A stretch of DNA of 21,578 bases, from the IMG/VR virus record IMGVR_UViG_3300046750_000783, positions 1-21,578 of that record; one strand, written 5' to 3'. The translations under genes and the position numbers were made by a program. Source of the stretch: a virus. Positions 8,049 to 20,655 of this stretch are shown one piece after another (the first letter of the stretch is position 1; each line of letters begins with the position of its first letter). The notes beneath the pieces were generated by a model. It searched no databases. It was not told the DNA's origin and saw only the letters and a program-made list of their open reading frames with translations.

Positions 8049-9236
8049 ATGTCAAACAACAGAGATTTGCTCAAAGAAGCAATTGCTGATGCTAAAGCAG
8101 TAAAAGAAACTGCCATAGCAAACGCTAAAGCTGCTTTAGAAGAAGCATTTACTCCTCATTTGAAATCTATGTTAGCCGCTAAATTGGAAGAAATGGACAA
8201 AGACGAAGACATCGACGAAGGATACGATAAGTATGAAGAAGACGATATTAAGGCTGAAGAAGTTTCTGAAGAAGTAGAAGCAGTAGAAGAAAATGAAGAA
8301 GTAACTGAAGCTGAAGAAGTAGAAGAAGCTAAAAAAGAAGAGATTGACGAAGAAGAAATCAATCTTGACGAATTACTTGCAGAACTTAATGAAGACGAAA
8401 AGGTAACAGAATCTGAAGAAATCGAAGAAGCTAAAGAAGAAATTGACGAAGCTAAAGAAGAAATTGACGAAGCTAAGGAAGAAATCGACGAAGCAAAAGA
8501 TGATAAAGAAGATGTTAAAGAATCAGAAGAAATTGAAGAATCTGAAGAAATTGAAGAATCAGAAGAAGTAACTGAAGCCGAAGAGGACGAAGCCGAAGAA
8601 GGTGAAGCCGAAGAAGGTGAAGGTGAAATGGAAGAGGAAGAAATTGATTTAGAAGATATGTCTGAAGATGACCTTAAAGGCTTTATTGAGGATGTAATTA
8701 AGGACATGGTACAAGCTGGTGAATTAGAAGCTGGAGAAGAAATGGAAGTAGATGGCGAAGAGTCAGAAATGGATATGGATATCGAAGTTGAAGATGAAGC
8801 AGAAATACCAATGATGGAAGAAAAAAAGGAAGAAGTAGAAGAAGCTAAAAAAGAAGACAAAGAAAAAGTAGATGAAAGTGAAGAACTTACAACTGCATTA
8901 TCTGAAGTTGAGGAACTTAAACAAGAACTTAACGAAGTTAACTTATTAAACGCTAAATTACTTTATACTAATAAAATCTTCAAATCAAAGAATTTGTCTG
9001 AAGACAAAAAAGTTAAAGTGTTGAAAGCTTTTGATAAAGCTGAAACCGTAAAAGAAGCTAAAGTTATTTTTGAAACATTAAACGAAGGTTTAGTTTCAAA
9101 AACAGTAGCAAATGTAAGACCACAAGGTAGTGCATCAAAAGCAACTGGAACAATAACTGAAGCAAAACAGCCAATCGTTGAAAACGCTGCATTTGCACGT
9201 ATGCAACAATTAGCTGGAATTATAAAAGAAAATTAA
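8049..9236 (+). CDS. 22: Prohead scaffold/core protein (gp22-like)
   Basis: 395 residues, extremely acidic. This is the main internal scaffold that templates the prohead and is degraded by gp21 before packaging. The N-terminal helix (DLLKEAIADAKAVKE) is followed by Glu/Asp-rich coiled coil from about 48 to 280. That region includes three perfect EAKEEID heptads (127-147) and SEEIEE hexads (about 159-175). Residues 285-350 are a better-mixed helical region (VNLLNAKLLYTNKIFKSKNL) typical of marine gp22 proteins, and the C-terminus ends NAAFARMQQLAGIIKEN. It is longer than T4 gp22 (269), mainly through the repeats. LKE at 8-10 fits the protease rule. It sits 24 bp before gp23, probably on the same transcript. 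The Ser-rich antisense frame is a shadow of the GAA/GAC codons. Confidence 0.93.
   Translation: MSNNRDLLKEAIADAKAVKETAIANAKAALEEAFTPHLKSMLAAKLEEMDKDEDIDEGYDKYEEDDIKAEEVSEEVEAVEENEEVTEAEEVEEAKKEEIDEEEINLDELLAELNEDEKVTESEEIEEAKEEIDEAKEEIDEAKEEIDEAKDDKEDVKESEEIEESEEIEESEEVTEAEEDEAEEGEAEEGEGEMEEEEIDLEDMSEDDLKGFIEDVIKDMVQAGELEAGEEMEVDGEESEMDMDIEVEDEAEIPMMEEKKEEVEEAKKEDKEKVDESEELTTALSEVEELKQELNEVNLLNAKLLYTNKIFKSKNLSEDKKVKVLKAFDKAETVKEAKVIFETLNEGLVSKTVANVRPQGSASKATGTITEAKQPIVENAAFARMQQLAGIIKEN
8427..8489 (+). repeat. Three tandem 21-bp repeats inside gp22
   Basis: Three consecutive 21-bp units encode EAKEEID. The first two (8427-8447 and 8448-8468) are identical and the third differs by two silent T/A-to-C/G changes (AAG for AAA, ATC for ATT). 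A partial fourth unit follows. Seven-residue periodicity fits a coiled-coil heptad that grew by in-frame duplication. Confidence 0.85.
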
Positions 9237-11832: not shown

Positions 11833-12975
11833 ATGAATGTACCAATTTATAATGGTAGTCCTAGTTGGTCCGCAGGTTTAACACCTTTTGGGTTTTATGA
11901 TAGTGAACTTGATTTTCAAACAGATGCTGTTAAAGTAGCAAAATTTTGTGCTCAACGTTTAGGGTACCCTTTAACTGATGTAGAACTTCAAGATATGAGT
12001 TTCTTCACAGCATTTGAAGAAGCAGTTACTATTTATGGCAATGAATTGTATGCCCATATTATTAGGGATAATCAATTATCTCTAGAAGGATTATCAACTG
12101 GTAGTAATTTAAATACAAGTATAGTAACACCTAATTTTGAACCCATCGTTAAGTTAACAGAACAATACGGTGCCGAAGCAGGGAGTGGGGGAAATGTACC
12201 ACACTATACAGGTTCATTTGTAATGACTGGAAGCCAACAAGATTATGATTTAGCTCAATGGGCAACAGACCAAGGTATAACTAGTAGTATTGAAATTAAA
12301 AAAGTATTTTATCAATCATCTCCTGCAATTACAAGATATTATGATCCTTATGTAGGAACAGGATTTGGATCCCAAAATATGTTTGATAGTTTTGGGTTTG
12401 GTGGTATGAGTCCGGCTATTAATTTTTTAATGATGCCCTTAAATTTTGATTTAGCTGCAATTCAAGCAATTGAACTAAATGATCAAATACGTAGATCTCA
12501 GTATAGCTTTGAATTAAAAAATAATAAATTAAGAATATTCCCAATACCATCAACTGGTGGGGGAAATTATTGGTTTGAGTATATTTTAAGAGAAGAAAGA
12601 ATCCAAGGTAGTGTTTCAAATACACCTGGAAATGTTACTAATGTATCAAATACCCCTTATACTAATCCCACATATGCAAGTATTAATTCTGTGGGGCGCC
12701 AATGGATATTTGAGTATACTTTAGCATTAGCTAAAGAGATGTTAGGATATGTAAGAGGAAAATATAGTAGTATCCCAATTCCAAATGCTGACGTAACACT
12801 AAATCAATCAGATTTAATTTCAGCGGCAACAACGGAAAAAGCAGCTTTAGTAGAAAAATTAAGAGGATATTTTGATCAAACTTCCCGTAAATCGTTATTA
12901 GAACGAAGAGCACAAGAAACTGAATTTAAACAAACGGAACTTCAACAAGTACCGTATACAATTTATATAGGATAA
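11833..12975 (+). CDS. 13: Neck protein, gp13-like
   Basis: 380 residues (T4 gp13 has 309). In T4, gp13 and gp14 complete the filled head and join it to the tail. The FCAQRLGYPLTDVELQDMSFFTAFEEAVTIYGN stretch (about 38-71) resembles the marine T4-type gp13 pattern, in which a helical unit names a predicted bundle (LG-P-V-VE-T/D) ahead of a long helix. The C-terminal half contains FEYILREER and a helical tail that ends in KQTELQQVPYTIYIG. The middle has a Gly/Phe/Met-rich insertion (about 180-220). The assignment also rests on order: the next two genes look like gp14 and gp15, as in T4. It has its own late-type promoter. I am sure it is a connector or neck gene, less sure of exact gp13 orthology. 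Confidence 0.75.
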   Translation: MNVPIYNGSPSWSAGLTPFGFYDSELDFQTDAVKVAKFCAQRLGYPLTDVELQDMSFFTAFEEAVTIYGNELYAHIIRDNQLSLEGLSTGSNLNTSIVTPNFEPIVKLTEQYGAEAGSGGNVPHYTGSFVMTGSQQDYDLAQWATDQGITSSIEIKKVFYQSSPAITRYYDPYVGTGFGSQNMFDSFGFGGMSPAINFLMMPLNFDLAAIQAIELNDQIRRSQYSFELKNNKLRIFPIPSTGGGNYWFEYILREERIQGSVSNTPGNVTNVSNTPYTNPTYASINSVGRQWIFEYTLALAKEMLGYVRGKYSSIPIPNADVTLNQSDLISAATTEKAALVEKLRGYFDQTSRKSLLERRAQETEFKQTELQQVPYTIYIG

Positions 12976-12976
12976 T

Positions 12977-13507
12977 ATGGCAATGTTTGGTCGCTTACGT
13001 GATGTAAGTTTAATAAGGGGATTAAATAGAGAATTACTACATGATGTTGTAACCCAACAAGCAGCTATTTATAAATTTAAACTAGAAGAAACTGGTGTAA
13101 ACATTTATGGTGAAGCTGCAGGGGAAAAATATTATGATGGTCCTTTTTTATTTAATTGTTTAATTAATAGAGAAGATCAATCATATAGTGATGTAGATGA
13201 AGGAGTAGGATTTAACCAAGGAATTGAGTTTGCATTTATTAGACAAGATTTAGTGGATGCTAATGTAGTACCCGAAGTAGGAGATATAGTTTTATATCAA
13301 AATAATTATTATGGAGTAAACTCCACAGTATCTAATCAATATTTTGTAGGTAAAAACCCATCATACCCTAATAATAGCTCTGATGGGTCAGAAAACCCCT
13401 TAAACCCTGGATTAGAAGATTTTGGTTCTAATTTATCTATTATAATTAAAACGTATAAAATCGCTAACGATAAAGTAGCTATTTCACCCTATAAAGAAAG
13501 ATTTTAA
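12977..13507 (+). CDS. 14: Neck protein, gp14-like (short)
   Basis: 176 residues against 256 in T4, so this is a reduced version. The pattern of a central EFAFIRQDLVDANVVPEVGDIVLYQNNYYGV stretch (about 88-117) matches gp14-type proteins, where a strand with Arg is followed by P-x-x-GD-I/L-Y-x-x-N. The protein is beta-rich, with no membrane segment. In T4 gp14 sits in the neck under the portal and gp13. It follows gp13 by 1 bp and its stop overlaps the next start (TAATG), so these genes are translated as a unit. Family assignment is by motif and order; residues beyond the central motif are not clearly alignable by eye. Confidence 0.68.
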   Translation: MAMFGRLRDVSLIRGLNRELLHDVVTQQAAIYKFKLEETGVNIYGEAAGEKYYDGPFLFNCLINREDQSYSDVDEGVGFNQGIEFAFIRQDLVDANVVPEVGDIVLYQNNYYGVNSTVSNQYFVGKNPSYPNNSSDGSENPLNPGLEDFGSNLSIIIKTYKIANDKVAISPYKERF

Positions 13508-14385
13508 TGCCTAATTTTAAACCATATCCAAAAAAACAAGTAGAGATTAGTAAAGGATTGCAAACAGCATTCGATACTAAAAGGGGAAATCCTAATAAAG
13601 AAATAAACCCTAATAAATCCCAAACGGGAATTGAGTTTAATAGATCAACTAAAATAAGTCAAAAAGGTGAAACATCAAAAACTTATTCTGTAGGTATTAA
13701 GGATATTGATGAAGCTGTTTTTTATTACTTTAATAATGTAATTCAACCTTTTGTATTCCAAAATGGAGAAAGAAGAGCAGTACCCATAATATATGGTAAT
13801 CCTGAAAGGTGGAAATCATATCAAAGAGATGGTTATTATAGAGATAAAGGTGGGTCTGTAATGTTACCTATTATAGTGATTAAAAGGGATACTATTGCAA
13901 AAGATAGAAGTACATACAATAAATTAGATTCTAATTCCCCTAATTTATATGGTACCTTCCAAAAAGGTTTCAACCCAAAAAACACATATAATAATTTTAA
14001 TTTACTAAATAATAGAGTTCCTACTAAACAATTTAATACTGTAGTAGTTCCTGATTATCTAGATATTACATATAGTTGTATTGTCCAAACTTATTATATG
14101 GAACAATTAAACAAAATAATTGAATCAGTAGAATACGCTTCAGATTCATATTGGGGTAATCCTGAAAGATTTAAATTTAATGCTAGAGTAAATTCCTTCT
14201 CTACTGCTGCTGAAATTACAGCAGGTCAGGATAGATTAGTTAAAAGTAATTTTGATATTAACCTAAGGGGTTATATCGTACCGGATGTAATGCAAAAAGA
14301 TTTAAATGCAATTAAAAAATTAAATTCTAAATCTAAAATTAACATAACAACAGAAACAACTGGGAATATTAATGATATTCCGTGA
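13507..14385 (+). CDS. 15: Tail sheath terminator/stabiliser, gp15-like
   Basis: 292 residues (T4 gp15 has 272). In T4 gp15 forms a hexameric ring that caps the finished tail and meets the neck. Recognisable pattern in order: a leading strand (DEAVFYYFNNVIQPFVFQ), RAVPIIYGNPERWKSY (T4-type VPLAYGPKEK equivalent), a LPIIVIKRDTI strand (PRM-FEI equivalent), and VVPDYLDITYSCIVQTYYMEQLNKIIESV. The last corresponds to the PYD-x-F-L-I-x-T-K--E-x-x-x-I-Q-I segment of gp15. Residues 1-50 are basic and polar. It closes the 13-14-15 block, and 33 bp of unremarkable AT-rich sequence separates it from the sugar genes. In T4 the genes 16-19 would follow here. Confidence 0.78.
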   Translation: MPNFKPYPKKQVEISKGLQTAFDTKRGNPNKEINPNKSQTGIEFNRSTKISQKGETSKTYSVGIKDIDEAVFYYFNNVIQPFVFQNGERRAVPIIYGNPERWKSYQRDGYYRDKGGSVMLPIIVIKRDTIAKDRSTYNKLDSNSPNLYGTFQKGFNPKNTYNNFNLLNNRVPTKQFNTVVVPDYLDITYSCIVQTYYMEQLNKIIESVEYASDSYWGNPERFKFNARVNSFSTAAEITAGQDRLVKSNFDINLRGYIVPDVMQKDLNAIKKLNSKSKINITTETTGNINDIP

Positions 14386-14418
14386 TAAATTAAATTAAGG
14401 TTTTTATATTACGACACA

Positions 14419-15498
14419 ATGAAAGTTTTATTTTTAGCACCACATCTAAGTACAGGAGGAATGCCTGCTTTTTTATTAAAAAGAATCCAATCCCTTAAAG
14501 AATATTCTGATATAGAAATTTATGTAGCAGAATGGAGTATTTATAGTTTAACTTATGTAGTACAAAGAGACCAAATTAAAAATTTAGTAGGAGATAACTT
14601 TATTTCATTTGAAGGAAAAGAAGAATTACAAAAAAACATTGTTAAATATTGCTATGATAAAAACATAGATATAATTCATATAGAAGAATCCCCAGAAGGG
14701 TTTGATTCATTCAATTCATTTCCCGAATATATTCAAGAAGATTTATACAATAAAAAACACCCATGGAAAATAATAGAAAGCCCCCATGGTATGTGGTTTG
14801 ACCCTTCAAAAAACAAAAAGTTTTTACCACATGGGTTTGCTTGTGTAACATTTGAACATGCAAATAAAACATATAAATTCCCAGATGTTAAAACTACTTT
14901 AATTCCATTTCCAATAGATATATCAATCCAATCAAATAAAACTAGAGAAGAAATTTTAGAAAACCATGGATATTTAACTAAAGGAGAATTTCATATATTA
15001 AATGTGGGGTTATGGACAAGGGGTAAAAACCAATCTTATGCCGTAGATATAGCTAAAAAATTGTATGATAAATATGGTTTTACTTATATATTCCATTTTA
15101 TAGGTAATCAAGCCCCTAATTTTAAAAATTATTGGGAACCTGTAGTAAAAGATTTAACTCCAAATATTAAAATATGGGGTGAAAGAACTGATACAGATAA
15201 ATTTTACAAAATGTCAGATTTAATGTTATTTACTTCTACTTGGGAATGTAACCCTATAGTATTAAAAGAAGCTATTTCAAATAATATTAAAATAATGGCT
15301 AATAATTTAGATCACTATGGTGATGAATATTTGCAGTATATAACTCCTTTAACTAAAAATATAACCCAAGATACAAATAAATTAATAGATGTTATCCATT
15401 CCCAAAATAAGTATGATCCCTATATTATTAACGATGTTAGGAATTTTGCTTTGCAACATTTAGATTTTTATAAAAAATTAATTGATGGAAAAAAATAA
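14419..15498 (+). CDS. Glycosyltransferase, GT-B fold, GT4-like
   Basis: 359 residues. The N-terminal Rossmann domain opens MKVLFLAPHLSTGGMPAFLL, with the Gly-rich loop (13-15) usual for the acceptor side. The C-terminal nucleotide-sugar domain has LNVGLWTRGKNQ (194-205), where the basic residues contact the donor phosphate, FHFIGN (225-230) and IWGERTDTDKFYKMSDLMLFTS. It then has the EX7E motif with Glu276 and Glu284 in STWECNPIVLKEAIS. These are hallmarks of family GT4 retaining glycosyltransferases. Donor and acceptor cannot be read from sequence. Context with a heptosyltransferase and ADP-heptose enzymes suggests it extends a glycan on the same acceptor. It overlaps the next gene by 14 bp. 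Host-surface modification is an alternative role. Confidence 0.88.
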   Translation: MKVLFLAPHLSTGGMPAFLLKRIQSLKEYSDIEIYVAEWSIYSLTYVVQRDQIKNLVGDNFISFEGKEELQKNIVKYCYDKNIDIIHIEESPEGFDSFNSFPEYIQEDLYNKKHPWKIIESPHGMWFDPSKNKKFLPHGFACVTFEHANKTYKFPDVKTTLIPFPIDISIQSNKTREEILENHGYLTKGEFHILNVGLWTRGKNQSYAVDIAKKLYDKYGFTYIFHFIGNQAPNFKNYWEPVVKDLTPNIKIWGERTDTDKFYKMSDLMLFTSTWECNPIVLKEAISNNIKIMANNLDHYGDEYLQYITPLTKNITQDTNKLIDVIHSQNKYDPYIINDVRNFALQHLDFYKKLIDGKK

Positions 15499-16597
15499 AA
15501 TTATTATTTCTTTTAACGGTCAACCAAAAGTTGAAATTAAAGGAGATAATCCTAAAAAGTATAAAATAGATTTTATAAATGGAGAAACTAACCAAACAGT
15601 TTACTCAACTGTTATTGATAATGATATGTGGACTTCTTGCAACCAGCGTTGGAATATTCCTTGGATTATAAAAATTAATAATAAAATAGTTCACAAATTT
15701 GATTTAACTAATAAAGAAGTAAAAGTAAGTCTTCAATCTAAAGCAGTTGGTGATACTTTAGCATGGACCCCTCAAATTCTTGAATTTCAAAAAAAATACA
15801 AATGCAAAGTGACTATAAGTACTTTTCACAATGAATGGTTTATAAATCACCCTAAATATAAAAACATTAAATTTATTAAGCCTGGAGAAGATGGAGAATA
15901 TTATGCTACTTTTAGTTTAGGTTGGTTTATGACAAAAGATAAATGGGATGAAGGTTCTTATCATCCTACTAAACCAAATACAATCCCCTTAATTCAGGCG
16001 GCAACAGATATTTTAGGACTTCCTTACCATGAAAAAAATTATGGAATAAAATATAAAGTAAAAAAAAGACCAATTAAAGAAAAATACATTTGTATAGGTC
16101 CTCGATCCACAGCGGCATTAAAAGAATGGGATTATAATTATTGGCAACACTTAGCAGAAGAATTGAATAAGTTAGGATATAAAGTAGTAAGCATTTCAAA
16201 GGAGGGATTTAAAAAACAAAATATAATTAATAAAGCAGATATGGAATGGGAAGATTCTATTAATTATCTCCACCATGCAGATTTATTTATAGGGCTAGGT
16301 TCGGGGTTATCTTGGATGAATTGGGCATTAGGAAAATACACACTTATGATTAATAATTTTAATCCTTATGGGTTTGATTTTACTCAAAACCTAACACAAA
16401 TCCAAAACCATTCAGTATGTAATGGATGTTGGGCTGATAGTAGATTTCAATTTAATAGGGGAAAGTGGGATTGGTGCCCTAGACATCAAGGAACTTTATC
16501 CGAATTTATTTGTCATAAATCTATAACCCCTGATAAAGTTTTAGAAAAAGTTAAATATATAATAAAACATAAATTAAATGAAAAAAATATGGGTTAA
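15485..16597 (+). CDS. TibC-type (BAHT) protein O-heptosyltransferase
   Basis: 370 residues from the ATG at 15485; a TTG at 15482 is also in frame but less likely. TibC-family enzymes transfer heptose from ADP-heptose onto Ser of beta-helical autotransporters. Residues 1-75 form the beta-rich N-terminal domain of that family. The GT-B core follows: SLQSKAVGDTLAW (82-94) with Asp90 as likely counterpart of the catalytic Asp, STFHNEWF (112-119), NTIPLIQAATDILGLPY (165-181), and KYICIGPRSTAALKEW (200-215). ADLFIGLGSGLSWMNWAL (265-282) completes the core. Cys312, Cys315 (CNGC), Cys331 (WCP) and Cys343 (FICHK) match the four-cysteine iron finger of TibC. Length is close to the family norm (about 400). 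Related GT9 LPS heptosyltransferases lack this cysteine set. Confidence 0.88.
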   Translation: MEKNKIIISFNGQPKVEIKGDNPKKYKIDFINGETNQTVYSTVIDNDMWTSCNQRWNIPWIIKINNKIVHKFDLTNKEVKVSLQSKAVGDTLAWTPQILEFQKKYKCKVTISTFHNEWFINHPKYKNIKFIKPGEDGEYYATFSLGWFMTKDKWDEGSYHPTKPNTIPLIQAATDILGLPYHEKNYGIKYKVKKRPIKEKYICIGPRSTAALKEWDYNYWQHLAEELNKLGYKVVSISKEGFKKQNIINKADMEWEDSINYLHHADLFIGLGSGLSWMNWALGKYTLMINNFNPYGFDFTQNLTQIQNHSVCNGCWADSRFQFNRGKWDWCPRHQGTLSEFICHKSITPDKVLEKVKYIIKHKLNEKNMG

Positions 16598-16973
16598 TGG
16601 GTGTTTTGATATATTACACCGTGGACATTATGAATTATTTAATTACGCTAAATCTTTAGGTGATAGACTTATAGTAGGAATAGATTCAGATGAAAAAGTA
16701 TCAAAAGATAAAGGTAAGAATAGACCATATAATAAATTAGAAGATAGAGTTTATGCTTTAGAAAGTTTAAAAGCTGTAGATAAAGTAATTGTTTTTAAAA
16801 ATCGTAAACATTTAGAATTACTAGTTGAAGTAAATAAACCTGATATTATGGTAGTAGGTAGTGACTGGAAAGGAAAAGAAATAGTAGGTGGACAATATTC
16901 AAAAGAAATTGTATATTTTAATAGAATAGGAAATTATTCTACAACAAATATTTTATTAAATGAGAGAAAGTAA
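16578..16973 (+). CDS. HldE C-domain-like heptose-1-phosphate adenylyltransferase
   Basis: 131 residues, a single nucleotidyltransferase domain. VNGCFDILHRGHYELF (6-21) carries the HxGH motif (His14, Gly16, His17) that binds the nucleotide. LGDRLIVGIDSD (28-39) and NRPYNKLEDRVYALESLKAVD (48-68) follow. VVGSDWKGKEIVGG and a terminal STTNI (121-125) come last. This sequence of motifs matches the adenylyltransferase half of HldE (RfaE), which makes ADP-heptose from heptose-1-phosphate and ATP. The STTNI ending separates it from glycerol-3-phosphate cytidylyltransferase (TagD), though substrate is not proven. In HldE this domain is fused to a kinase; here the kinase is a separate gene two positions on. 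It overlaps the upstream gene by 20 bp and the downstream by 14 bp. Confidence 0.88.
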   Translation: MKKIWVNGCFDILHRGHYELFNYAKSLGDRLIVGIDSDEKVSKDKGKNRPYNKLEDRVYALESLKAVDKVIVFKNRKHLELLVEVNKPDIMVVGSDWKGKEIVGGQYSKEIVYFNRIGNYSTTNILLNERK

Positions 16974-17310
16974 ATTATACCCTGATAGACAAAAAAAGGT
17001 ATTTGTTGATATAGATGAAACAATTTGCTTTTATAAAGGTAAAAGAATATATGAATTAGCTATACCTAATGTAACTAATATTAATAAGATAAATAAACTT
17101 AAAAAAGAAGGATGGCATATTACTTATTATACTGCGAGGGGTGGAGCATCTAAAATAGATTATTCTGAACTAACCCATAAACAATTAAATACATGGGAAT
17201 GTTTATATGATGAACTAATAGTAGGATACTCAGAAAACCCCCATACGCCTACAAAACCTTCATATGATTTAATTATAGATGATAAAGCTAAAAGAATAGA
17301 AGAGTTATGA
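16960..17310 (+). CDS. Small HAD-family phosphatase, candidate heptose-bisphosphate phosphatase
   Basis: 116 residues, a capless HAD domain. Motif I VFVDIDETIC has the nucleophile Asp17 and Asp19. Motif II is Thr58 in YYTARGG (56-62), motif III Lys99, and motif IV DLIIDDKA (103-110) with Asp107/Asp108. All catalytic residues are present. Small HAD proteins of this kind lie in bacterial capsule and nucleotide-sugar gene clusters. Lying between an HldE-like adenylyltransferase and an HldE-like kinase, it could remove the C7 phosphate of heptose-1,7-bisphosphate, the GmhB step. It is much shorter than GmhB (about 190) and lacks a recognisable GmhB zinc loop, so the reaction is inferred from context only. 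Overlaps: 14 bp upstream, 4 bp (ATGA) downstream. Confidence 0.82.
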   Translation: MRESKLYPDRQKKVFVDIDETICFYKGKRIYELAIPNVTNINKINKLKKEGWHITYYTARGGASKIDYSELTHKQLNTWECLYDELIVGYSENPHTPTKPSYDLIIDDKAKRIEEL

Positions 17311-18041
17311 ATATAGTTGTTATAGGAGAATCTTGTATTGATAAATTTGTATATTGTAAAGCAAATAGAATTTGCCCTGAAGCACCCGTTCCAGTAATAA
17401 ACCCTATCAATACTATTACTAACCCAGGCATGGCTTCTAATACTATATCTAATGTAAAAATATTATACCCTGATGCTGAGGTTAAATTAATAACCCAAAA
17501 TGAAAATATAACTAAAACTAGGTTTGTAGAAAAAAAATCAAACCAAATGTTTATTAGACTAGATGAAGGGGAGGATATTATATACCCTTTAAAATGGGAT
17601 CAAGAATTAGTTGAACAAATACATAATGCCGATATAGTTATAGTTAGTGATTATAATAAAGGACTTTTATCAAATAAAGATATATTAATGATAGGAGACA
17701 TTTCTAAATTATCAATTTTAGATAGTAAAAGAAAACTTAATAATGAAATGATATCCCATTTTCATTTTATTAAATTAAATGAATATGAATTTGAAAATAA
17801 TAAACATTTAAATCATAAGGGAATAATTACAACCTTAGGATCTAAAGGTGCTATTTATAAAGGTACCTTATACCCTAGCCCCAAACCACAAGAAACAATA
17901 GATGTTAGTGGTGCAGGAGATACTTTTACAGCCTCTTTTATAACTAAATATTTTGAAACTAAATCTGATCATAAATCTATTAATTTTGCAAATAAGATGG
18001 CATCTAAAGTAGTAAGTAAAAGGGGAGTAGTAACCCCATAA
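17307..18041 (+). CDS. HldE N-domain-like PfkB sugar kinase (compact heptose-7-phosphate kinase)
   Basis: 244 residues, about 70 shorter than the usual HldE kinase domain. The ribokinase (PfkB) signatures are intact. VVIGESCIDKFVYCKANRICPEAPVPV (4-30) contains the RI-PEAPVP motif typical of HldE. NPGMASNTISNV (39-50) takes the place of PGGAANVA. KTRFVEKKSNQMFIRLDEGE (70-89), VSDYNKGLLS (113-122) and LNEYEFE (157-163) also match HldE. The catalytic loop DVSGAGDTF (199-207) has base Asp205. HldE-K phosphorylates D-glycero-beta-D-manno-heptose 7-phosphate at C1. The missing residues come from shortened loops and helices between these motifs rather than a truncated end, so the enzyme is probably active. 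The last gene of the sugar island; a new promoter follows in 42 bp. Confidence 0.88.
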   Translation: MNIVVIGESCIDKFVYCKANRICPEAPVPVINPINTITNPGMASNTISNVKILYPDAEVKLITQNENITKTRFVEKKSNQMFIRLDEGEDIIYPLKWDQELVEQIHNADIVIVSDYNKGLLSNKDILMIGDISKLSILDSKRKLNNEMISHFHFIKLNEYEFENNKHLNHKGIITTLGSKGAIYKGTLYPSPKPQETIDVSGAGDTFTASFITKYFETKSDHKSINFANKMASKVVSKRGVVTP

Positions 18042-18059
18042 ATTTAAAAATTTTTATAC

Positions 18060-18069
18060 ATATTTATAA
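18060..18069 (+). promoter_or_regulatory. T4-late-like promoter ATATTTATAA before the small coiled-coil gene
   Basis: An exact ATATTTATAA lies in the 42-bp gap after the sugar kinase. It ends 14 nt before the ATG at 18084, so the tail block is separately transcribed from the sugar island. Confidence 0.72.
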
Positions 18070-18083
18070 CAAAATTAAATTAA

Positions 18084-18335
18084 ATGAAGTTATCTGAAAA
18101 AGAGTTGCAAGATTTAAATGAAATTCAGCAACAAAGTAATAATATAATATTTTCATTAGGAGAATTAGTATTGCAAAAACAAAGTTTAATTGATAATTAC
18201 CGTGAAATAGTAGTACAACAAAATAATTTAGGTAGTCAATTAAGTAAAAAGTATGGAGATGGTAGAATCGATTTAACAACAGGAGAAATTCAATCCCCAA
18301 CAGAAGAAAATAAAGATAATTCCACCACCCCTTAG
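18084..18335 (+). CDS. Small coiled-coil protein of T4-like phages, unknown function
   Basis: 83 residues. Residues 1-57 form an amphipathic, Gln/Glu/Leu-rich helix or helical hairpin (LNEIQQQSNNIIFSLGELVLQKQSL). It is followed by KKYGDGRIDLTTGEI and a disordered polar tail ending STTP. I recall similar short proteins with a KYGDG-x-I/IDL-TGE motif in marine T4-like phages, without known function. It has its own late-type promoter and sits directly before the tail sheath gene, so a tail-assembly or chaperone role is possible. No signal peptide, membrane segment or cysteine. Confidence 0.78.
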   Translation: MKLSEKELQDLNEIQQQSNNIIFSLGELVLQKQSLIDNYREIVVQQNNLGSQLSKKYGDGRIDLTTGEIQSPTEENKDNSTTP

Positions 18336-18390: not shown

Positions 18391-20655
18391 ATGGCAGAAA
18401 CATTAATCTCACCTGGTGTATTGGCTCGTGAAAACGACCAATCTTTTATACAAGGTCAACCTATAGAAGCAGGAGCGGCTATTGTAGGACCCGCAGTTAA
18501 AGGACCTGTAGGAATCCCAACATTAGTAACTTCTTTTAGTGAATATCTATCAACATTTGGTGGAGCTGTTACTAGCGGATCTTCAGAATATACTTATTTA
18601 ACTTCAATTTCAGCAAATAACTATTTTTCCCAAGGAGGAAAATCATTATTAGTTACTAGAGTTGTAAGTGGTTCATTCAGTGACGCAGATACATCTAACC
18701 AAATTCAATGTCTAGAACATGAAAGTGGAGTATTAGCATTACAGGCTATATCCCTTACAGGTGGTACCGATGGAATTCCCAATACTTACACAACTGTATC
18801 CCCTACATCAACAAGTGGAAGTGGAGCTGAATTTACAATCATCACTGGTATAACAAGTGGTAAATTAACTCCATCAACTTCTGGTTTAACTAGTGCAGTT
18901 TCTTCAAGTTATGATGATTCAGGGAATAATACTACATATAGTGATGTTGCCGTAACAACAGATGGGAGTGGAGAAGGTGCTTTATTATATATTAGTATTG
19001 ATACTGATGGATCAATCCTTCAGGCTACTGCTACAACACAAGGGAGCGGGTATGCTGTAGGTGATAAGATAACGGTTTCTGCAGGAATGATTGGATCAGG
19101 TGTAGATTTAGAATTTACTTTAACCTCGGATCAATTTCAAGCAGAAATTGAAAGCGCTACTGTTACTAATGGAGGTAGTGGATATATTCTAGGTGAAGTT
19201 TTAACCATAAATGGAGATGATTTAGGAAGTGCAGAAAATGCAACTATAACATTAGGTGCAAGTAATATTGTAAATGCTACAAGTTTTGCTCTTGGTACTA
19301 TATCTGAAGGAGTAATAATGAATAGTGCAGGAAGCGAAGTAGGAAATGGTGCTTTAGCTAATGGATCAAGCGATAATATTAGATATGAAATAGTTTCATC
19401 TAATGCTAATACAGGAACTTTTAGTTTACTTGTTCGTAGAGGTAATGATACTCATAAAAATAAATCAATTTTAGAAACATGGGGTAACTTATCATTAGAC
19501 CCTAAAGCCCCTAATTATATTGAAAAAGTAATTGGTAATACAACCTATGATGTAGAAGTAGATGGTGTGGATTCATATGTAAAATCTTCTGGAGAATATA
19601 CTAATAAAAGTAAATATATCATAGTAAAATCAGTATCTAAAAAGACACCAGATTATTTTGATAATAATGGAACACCAAAATCAATATTTACAGGAAGTCT
19701 ACCACAAGTAGGATCAGGTTCCTTTAGTGGAGCTACTGGTGATTTATTCGGAGCTGATGCTAAATTTTATGATGAAATTACAAATACAAATATTCAAGGA
19801 TTAGCTCCTCATGAATATACCTCATCAATAGCTTTATTAAATAATAAAGATGATTATAAATTTAACTTATTAACAGCCCCAGGATTAAATAATAGTGATC
19901 ATAGTGATGCTACTAGTCAATTAGTAACAGTAGCAGAAACACGTCAAGACTGTATAGCAGTTGTAGATTTAGATGGATATGGAACAAAAATATCAACTAT
20001 GATAACTAATGCTGCGGCATTTGATAGCTCATATGGGGCTACTTACTGGCCTTGGTTACAAACAATTGATCCTAACACAGGACAAGTTGTTTGGGTACCA
20101 GCTTCAACTATGATACCTGGAGTATATGCATTTACAGATGCTTCAAGTGACGCATGGTTTGCACCTGCAGGTTTAACAAGAGGTGCTCTTGGAAATGTAA
20201 CCAAAGCAGAAAGAAAATTAACAACTTCTAATAGAGATTCCTTATATGAAGTTAATATTAACCCAATAGCTACATTCCCAGGAAGTGGAGTTGTAGTATT
20301 TGGACAAAAGACACTACAGAAACGAGCTAGCGCATTAGATCGTGTAAATGTACGTAGATTATTAATTGCTTTAAAAAGCTTTATATCCCAGATATCTGAT
20401 AATTTAGTATTTGAACAAAACACAATTGCTACAAGAAATTCATTCTTAGCAGATGTAAACCCATACTTAGAATCAGTACAACAAAGACAAGGATTGTATG
20501 CATTTAAAGTAGTAATGGATGATACTAATAATACTCCAGATGTAATAGATAGAAACCAATTAGTAGGACAGATTTATATCCAACCAACTAGAACAGCAGA
20601 ATTTATTATGCTGGATTTCAATGTATTACCAACAGGAGCAGTATTTCCTGAATAA
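18391..20655 (+). CDS. 18: Contractile tail sheath protein (gp18-like) with inserted beta-repeat domain
   Basis: 754 residues (T4 gp18 has 659). Sheath subunits stack around the tube and contract at infection. The N-terminus is typical: SPGVLARENDQSF (7-19), then AAIVGPAVKGPVGIPTLVTSF (29-49) and YLSTFGG (52-58). The C-terminal core is also conserved, with GLTRGALGNVTKAERKL, NINPIATFPGSGVVVFGQKTLQ, ALDRVNVRRLLIALKSFI, and EFIMLDFNVLPTGAVFPE at the end. Between about 126 and 295 lies a Ser/Thr/Gly-rich beta region absent from the core. It holds two similar repeats, GSGYAVGDKITV (218-229) and GSGYILGEVLTI (262-273), and probably projects from the sheath surface. It lies close to a heptosyltransferase gene and could be its acceptor; that is speculation. 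Confidence 0.96.
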   Translation: MAETLISPGVLARENDQSFIQGQPIEAGAAIVGPAVKGPVGIPTLVTSFSEYLSTFGGAVTSGSSEYTYLTSISANNYFSQGGKSLLVTRVVSGSFSDADTSNQIQCLEHESGVLALQAISLTGGTDGIPNTYTTVSPTSTSGSGAEFTIITGITSGKLTPSTSGLTSAVSSSYDDSGNNTTYSDVAVTTDGSGEGALLYISIDTDGSILQATATTQGSGYAVGDKITVSAGMIGSGVDLEFTLTSDQFQAEIESATVTNGGSGYILGEVLTINGDDLGSAENATITLGASNIVNATSFALGTISEGVIMNSAGSEVGNGALANGSSDNIRYEIVSSNANTGTFSLLVRRGNDTHKNKSILETWGNLSLDPKAPNYIEKVIGNTTYDVEVDGVDSYVKSSGEYTNKSKYIIVKSVSKKTPDYFDNNGTPKSIFTGSLPQVGSGSFSGATGDLFGADAKFYDEITNTNIQGLAPHEYTSSIALLNNKDDYKFNLLTAPGLNNSDHSDATSQLVTVAETRQDCIAVVDLDGYGTKISTMITNAAAFDSSYGATYWPWLQTIDPNTGQVVWVPASTMIPGVYAFTDASSDAWFAPAGLTRGALGNVTKAERKLTTSNRDSLYEVNINPIATFPGSGVVVFGQKTLQKRASALDRVNVRRLLIALKSFISQISDNLVFEQNTIATRNSFLADVNPYLESVQQRQGLYAFKVVMDDTNNTPDVIDRNQLVGQIYIQPTRTAEFIMLDFNVLPTGAVFPE

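Follow-up and report, generated by a model that had tools for sequence, protein, structure and literature searches.

The window analysed here is a 21,578-bp virus record (IMG/VR record IMGVR_UViG_3300046750_000783), a genome fragment in which the genes are arranged as in a T4-like phage: terminase, portal, protease, major capsid protein, PhoH, a "neck" region, an island of cargo genes, tail sheath and tail tube. The island encodes a GT4-fold glycosyltransferase, a TibC-type transferase of the BAHT family, a nucleotidyltransferase, a HAD-fold phosphatase and a kinase (Table 1), and it is considered below as a putative phage system for protein O-heptosylation. A sequence-only reading of the window had placed five tightly packed or overlapping genes at 14,419-18,041, within the virion block from neck to tail sheath. 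All five open reading frames are present there, successive genes overlapping by 14, 20, 14 and 4 nucleotides, and in the surrounding virion block sheath and tube are confirmed by profile searches. The neck genes are named by position only, and the two of them that were put through a profile scan had no family match. The same gene order was seen again independently in two relatives, L002 (99%) and L003 (78%).

Table 1. Features of the island and its surroundings, in positions of the window
Feature	Position	Strand	Length (residues)	Basis or remark
Optional cargo island	14386..18083	+		Site between neckC and the 83-residue gene; comparison of relatives
GT4-fold glycosyltransferase	14419..15498	+	359	PF13692 E 3e-7; PF00534 E 8e-7
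BAHT, TibC/Aah-type protein O-heptosyltransferase	15485..16597	+	370	TIGR04414; TibC fold
HldE-C-like nucleotidyltransferase, predicted heptose-1-phosphate adenylyltransferase	16578..16973	+	131	TIGR02199; HRGH
HAD-fold phosphatase, predicted to remove the 7-phosphate	16960..17310	+	116	phrog_1238 E 9e-22
HldE-N-like heptose-7-phosphate kinase, short form	17307..18041	+	244	TIGR02198; HldA-like fold
Three neck-region genes	11833-12975, 12977-13507, 13507-14385	+		Named by position only; upstream of island
Small conserved gene	18084..18335	+	83	Downstream edge of site; present with or without island
Tail sheath	18391..20655	+		PF04984/PF17482; phrog_23 E 2e-77

The second gene of the island belongs to the BAHT family, whose members are known for sugar-coating Escherichia coli adhesins. 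Its product matches the Aah/TibC model TIGR04414 over residues 7-359 with 221 bits (E 2e-65), passing the curated cut-off of 200, and two TibC chains (PDB 4rap, E 4e-32) are its sole sequence matches among solved structures. An AlphaFold2 model of the protein (mean predicted local distance difference test score, pLDDT, 93.6) includes the N-terminal beta-barrel and superposes residues 4-370 on TibC 21-397 with a VIA Z of 39.9 and a root-mean-square deviation of 1.9 Å over 355 residues, the next structural family being GT9 (Z 21). When TibC is used as the reference (PMC4358343), its catalytic Asp110 and Lys230 and phosphate-binding Thr226 correspond to D91, K214 and T210, the catalytic Asp and Lys being invariant across 27 homologues, and its iron-finger cysteines Cys339/342/358/370 correspond to C313/C316/C332/C344, as counted in a 371-residue version of the protein. 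That version follows the open reading frame listed from TTG at 15,482; the in-frame ATG at 15,485 is the likelier start, and the L003 homologue begins with ATG. The earlier claim of a TibC-type transferase with its four cysteines is thus upheld, and the profile and structure checks returned TibC as best match for this protein and HldA as best solved match for the kinase. BAHTs are encoded by at least 549 viral contigs. Two BAHT proteins (L044:9986-11086 and L045:2918-4015) have lost all four iron-finger cysteines but retain the catalytic residues, and three loci (L060, L064 and L075) carry a second, shorter BAHT-like gene of about 295 residues directly 3' of the full one.

The three genes that follow resemble enzymes of ADP-heptose synthesis. 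For the nucleotidyltransferase, TIGR02199 is the top NCBIfam model (117 bits, E 5e-34, versus 81 bits for the glycerol-3-phosphate cytidylyltransferase model TIGR01518), phrog_7878 scores 163 bits, and the HxGH motif is present as HRGH. The kinase matches TIGR02198 with 110 bits (E 1e-31) and phrog_8133 with 233 bits, and its AlphaFold2 model (pLDDT 91.3) finds HldA as best solved match (4e84, Z 25.7, versus 23.2 for the best ribokinase); GAGD and SDYxKG are kept in 43 homologues, GAGD without exception. The sequence-only reading had called these two an HldE-like adenylyltransferase and kinase, which the family matches bear out at the level of likeness to HldE only. The profile of the HAD protein matches PDB 9iqw, a "capsule biosynthesis protein" (E 2e-21), and D17/D19/T21 (DxDxT), T58, K99 and D108 are invariant in seven phage homologues. 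Of the earlier proposal for this protein, the HAD phosphatase part stands on these motifs and on phrog_1238, while membership of the GmhB family falls away, no GmhB model having matched in the profile scans. It is predicted to perform the GmhB-equivalent step from outside that family, with a weak likeness to EcbF/BcbF. Two further genes of this kind were encountered elsewhere: a kinase homologue on a BAHT-bearing phage contig (G149:C1:27938-28672) whose reading frame contains two TAA codons, either a broken gene or a case of stop reassignment, and a 56-bit "HldE-C" match at 9195 of G028, which was set aside as a donor gene and taken as nicotinamide mononucleotide adenylyltransferase-like, as it adjoins a NadR-like kinase.

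The GT4 gene lies directly 5' of the BAHT gene in all loci of the window clade, and the BAHTs of many relatives carry a GT4 domain at their N-terminus as a fusion, an arrangement in keeping with the proposal that GT4 is a second glycosyltransferase working with BAHT. GT4 relatives also occur near long collagen-like repeat genes in L521, L522 and L524, with no BAHT seen nearby, and GT4 may for this reason itself act on the fibre.

Comparison of relatives identifies the interval between neckC and the 83-residue gene as a cargo slot that is empty, or holds GT4 and BAHT, GT4 and BAHT with donor genes, or BAHT with tail-fibre genes. Four states were seen among relatives whose flanks are nearly identical. 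At the empty site of L099, whose tube and neckC proteins share 96% and 88% amino acid identity with those of the window, 52 nucleotides separate the two flanking genes. L010 and L012 hold GT4 and BAHT only, L003 has the same five genes as the window, and L101 has six, a 119-residue cupin gene (L101:3321-3680) that is not in the window being inserted between the HAD and kinase genes. Sampling by the tube gene, which does not select for BAHT, gave 53 readable distinct sites, comprising 24 with BAHT, 15 empty (in one of which, L137, cargo sits on the opposite side of the 83-residue gene) and 14 with other visible cargo. The earlier statement that the phage carries the donor trio therefore holds for the gene content of the window and needs qualification beyond it, where the trio is optional and relatives have GT4 and BAHT alone or an empty site.

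A likely acceptor is indicated by the genomic company of BAHT. The searches for BAHT, GmhA and repeat tracts were run on records that are often fragmentary, so absences carry little weight for short records. Near BAHT, many phages encode proteins resembling tail fibres, in which collagen-like Gly-[Ser/Thr]-Ser (G[ST]S) repeats number in the tens to hundreds; some of these proteins appear, on reading their sequences, to end in a C-terminal chaperone domain. The visible region of L049-L051 amounts to a minimal cassette of a fibre gene (GXX350), a GT4-BAHT fusion, the 83-residue gene and the sheath gene. Among viral records selected for tracts, BAHT was found in 20/50 with G[ST]S and 0/50 Gly-Pro-X controls (p 2e-7), or 15/23 versus 0/17 when only records of at least 50 kb are counted; conversely, tracts occurred in 18/30 BAHT-positive and 2/20 BAHT-negative viral records (p 4e-4). 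On the BAHT tree, the starred branches force at least nine changes of tract label.

The association extends to bacteria, in which BAHTs found with the same profile lie close to a secreted or lipoprotein-like G[ST]S gene in Methylobacter (two), Methylomicrobium, Acidiferrobacterales, Arenicellales and a gammaproteobacterium, and 5.7 kb from a G[ST]S-tract gene in Schekmanbacterium. In all, BAHT lies near such genes in seven bacterial genomes, and its neighbours in Methylobacter, Methylomicrobium, Acidiferrobacterales, Arenicellales and others have (GTS/GSS)n tracts. When nine bacterial genomes were scanned in full for (G[ST][ST])6, six proved to hold perfect tracts. In five of these six, every perfect tract lies 0.2-5.7 kb from the sole BAHT above the cut-off; the sixth has its perfect tract on a different contig, with a degenerate tract beside BAHT. 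For a single tract cluster, the probability of landing this near to BAHT by chance is about 0.001-0.002 per genome. The BAHTs of Anaerovibrio (L273, L274), which have no tract, were kept as negatives, and two records binned in bacterial metagenome-assembled genomes, one of them Winogradskyella (L261, L262), were not counted as bacterial, since their sheath and tube genes mark them as phage contigs. Across the BAHT family, the G[ST]S tract is the most likely acceptor, as judged from these sequence associations. Our search of the literature found no report of a collagen-like G[ST]S target for TibC-type enzymes, nor of phage virion glycosylation with heptose of this kind.

The timing of expression may be read from a repeated element, TATTTATAA, which has 12 copies in the window against 2.6 expected, a number reached in 0/100 shuffles. 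Copies at 2624, 4561, 10936, 11811, 18061, 18356 and 20672 stand mostly 13-27 nucleotides 5' of late-gene starts. In relatives, the element precedes the first neck gene in 28/32 cases, the 83-residue gene in 66/125 (about 12-15 nucleotides upstream), the sheath gene in 99/136 and the tube gene in 140/143. It was found before none of the second or third neck genes of relatives (0/38 and 0/45), nor before their island genes, whether GT4 (0/18), BAHT (0/97) or the donor genes (0/13, 0/18 and 0/13). We read it as a late promoter-like element in this group of phages, and because it precedes the first neck gene and never the island genes, the island is probably expressed by read-through, on a transcript shared with the neck genes.

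These lines converge on a reading that we hold with moderate confidence, namely that the island is cargo for phage protein O-heptosylation, with the trio making ADP-heptose and BAHT heptosylating a late virion protein. The kinase, then the HAD phosphatase, then the nucleotidyltransferase would convert heptose-7-phosphate to ADP-heptose; BAHT would move the heptose onto Ser/Thr of a virion protein made late in infection; and GT4 would probably extend the glycan or add a second sugar. Family-wide, the most likely acceptor would be the G[ST]S tract, in phages usually that of a tail fibre, and read-through into an island with no late promoter-like element of its own would have the enzymes made during virion assembly. 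Fibre stabilisation, adsorption or masking might be the benefit. The position of the island in the late virion block without such an element, and the tie between BAHT and the G[ST]S fibres that phages encode, frequently within one island, speak against the rather improbable view that the enzymes alter the host surface (lipopolysaccharide, capsule or adhesin), for instance to block superinfection or change phage release, and leave the virion untouched. Lipopolysaccharide heptosyltransferase families, moreover, match the phage BAHT far less well than TibC does (23 versus 221 bits; Z 20.5 versus 39.9). That view draws on the cyanophage donor genes, which have further sugar genes (carbamoyltransferase, transketolase-like and epimerase) around them, and on the bacterial BAHTs, which act on surface proteins (PMC4358343).

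Several findings weigh against heptosylation of a virion fibre as set out above. In the BAHT, the TibC adenine contact Arg286 is replaced by Ser259, and at the donor-selectivity position, where Pro300 or Ser294 was looked for, Gly273 stands in place of Pro300. The trio scores below curated cut-offs (kinase 110/345, nucleotidyltransferase 117/181.5 and, for the EcbF-BcbF model, HAD 21/162 bits), for which reason its members are named "HldE-like" and "HAD" instead of HldE and GmhB. The link between donor genes and BAHT is loose, cyanophages having the trio without BAHT and most BAHT phages having no kinase in the record examined; the kinase occurs in 6/26 BAHT-selected records versus 1/24, which is not significant (p 0.10). 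Other cargo, with no BAHT in the visible part, fills the 14/53 tube-sampled sites mentioned above. The records with tracts and the controls are unlike in composition and probably also in phage lineage, and ancestry may inflate the phage figures. Neither the window nor its near-identical extension L002 contains a G[ST]S tract, and none occurs in the visible loci of the window's BAHT clade, whose longest record spans 54 kb. A scan for longer contigs of this clade found none, which leaves its fibre unreadable.

The first of these findings bears on the identity of the donor. The Arg286 and Pro300 positions affect specificity and are no defining mark of the BAHT sequence family, and with Ser and Gly in their place, homology does not fix the donor base or stereochemistry. 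The suggestion that HldD may be dispensable because TibC takes the D,D form cannot, for the same reason, be carried over from TibC. It might thus be supposed that BAHT uses a donor other than ADP-heptose, that the trio feeds GT4 or another enzyme, and that their pairing in one operon is coincidental. In addition to the replacements R286 to S/T and P300 to G in the window clade, this would fit the lack of the trio in most BAHT phages and the situation in Flavobacteriaceae, which are mostly without GmhA and HldE-C, so that trio-less BAHT phages there would have no donor. We nevertheless consider it unlikely, because the trio lies directly 3' of BAHT in overlapping frames and recurs near BAHT (L251, L197/L202; 9/26), and because kinase, phosphatase and nucleotidyltransferase correspond to three consecutive heptose steps, with an HldD-like gene alongside in cyanophages.

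For ADP-heptose as the donor, the supply of its precursor has to be accounted for. As the sequence-only reading had stated, neither GmhA nor HldD is encoded in the window. That reading sought GmhA in the host or elsewhere in the phage genome; a search of phage records found it in 0/32, three complete cyanophages with the same trio included, and the host is a doubtful source. The host is likely to be a marine member of the Flavobacteriia, as the capsid gene resembles that of Flavobacterium phage immuto (74% identity over 0.7 kb), and a clear GmhA match was obtained for only four of 100 Flavobacteriaceae genomes, with HldE-C above the cut-off in none of the 100; host-supplied GmhA is accordingly unlikely if the host is one of the Flavobacteriaceae. 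Aquatic phages may have a substitute. In a set of 90 kinase loci, the module includes the nucleotidyltransferase in 61, a cupin of about 120 residues in 55 and the HAD protein in 47, and in P-SSM2 the trio adjoins an HldD-like epimerase (TIGR02197, 210 bits; cut-off 275). The cupin matches the aldose-ketose isomerase families PF07385 and PF01050 weakly, and the conversion of sedoheptulose-7-phosphate to manno-heptose-7-phosphate is the same chemistry as that of fructose-6-phosphate to mannose-6-phosphate; on both grounds it is a candidate isomerase replacing GmhA. BAHT was present in 9/26 kinase-selected records versus 0/50 controls, and with the kinase in only 6/26 BAHT-selected records, the trio backs BAHT in some phages, and most do not require it.

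The last of the contrary findings bears on the acceptor, which in the window phage would be a G[ST]S fibre by analogy with its relatives. As window-clade islands lack such a fibre and always adjoin the 83-residue gene and the sheath gene, the target in this clade might instead be another virion protein, such as the sheath, the tube or the 83-residue product. This seems improbable, since those three genes are equally present at empty sites and the insert of the long sheath is independent of BAHT: L099, with an empty site, has a 753-residue sheath, whereas BAHT-positive L017 and L101 have sheaths of 566-567 residues. For the family in general, the sheath insert was rejected as acceptor because sheath length does not track BAHT. 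In relatives, the sheath measures about 567 or about 750 residues, the difference being an inserted Gly-rich domain without a link to the island.

Beyond the fibre as acceptor, a wider scheme may be entertained tentatively, as something short of probable, in which, in phages and many environmental bacteria, BAHT and a collagen-like G[ST]S protein form a two-gene system that produces a hyperglycosylated, heptosylated and proline-poor rod, the shaft of a phage fibre or a bacterial surface protein, and some phages, that of the window among them, bring an ADP-heptose pathway, starting with the cupin isomerase in place of GmhA, into hosts that lack it.

Compared with known systems, the phage enzyme shares with TibC of enterotoxigenic E. 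coli and Aah of diffusely adhering E. coli (PMC4358343) the sequence family, fold, beta-barrel, catalytic Asp and Lys and four-Cys finger. It differs in its place in the virion block, its G[ST]S context, the changes at Arg286 and Pro300, its frequent fusion to GT4 and the apparent lack of an autotransporter, no autotransporter passenger being encoded in the window, which is an incomplete genome. The trio shares three consecutive steps with HldE (RfaE) or HldA-HldC plus GmhB, its kinase fold being nearest to HldA and its HxGH enzyme to HldE-C, but is split, short (244 and 131 residues for kinase and nucleotidyltransferase), below cut-offs and of another HAD type. According to the passages of PMC12619734 that cite Freeman et al. 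2023, mycobacteriophages glycosylate their own virion proteins with their own glycosyltransferases, at the C-termini of capsid and tail tube. Both the enzymes and the sites differ from those of the window island. To our knowledge, no donor-synthesis genes of the island's kind accompany virion glycosylation in mycobacteriophages. What is new here is that a TibC-type protein heptosyltransferase system travels as optional cargo in phages and that its predicted targets differ from the autotransporters after which the family is named. If the proposal is correct, the collagen-like tail fibres of a widespread class of aquatic phages are glycosylated by the phages themselves, the whole BAHT family acquires a sharply defined acceptor, the presence of ADP-heptose genes in phages whose hosts mostly lack them is explained, and glycoengineers gain a short repeat tag with a matching transferase.

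The closest phage counterpart of the trio is the cyanophage module T4-GC 304-308 (P-SSM2, S-SM2 and S-CAM3), which has homologous kinase, nucleotidyltransferase and HAD genes near tail-fibre genes but differs in the absence of BAHT from these genomes, in the addition of a cupin and an HldD-like epimerase, and in its annotated names. In P-SSM2 (L097:8719-9400) and other cyanophages, the "phosphoheptose isomerase" is HAD phosphatase-like and the "cysteine dioxygenase" is a small cupin, and the "nucleotide-sugar epimerase" beside the cupin and HAD genes is HldD-like, so these public names look wrong.

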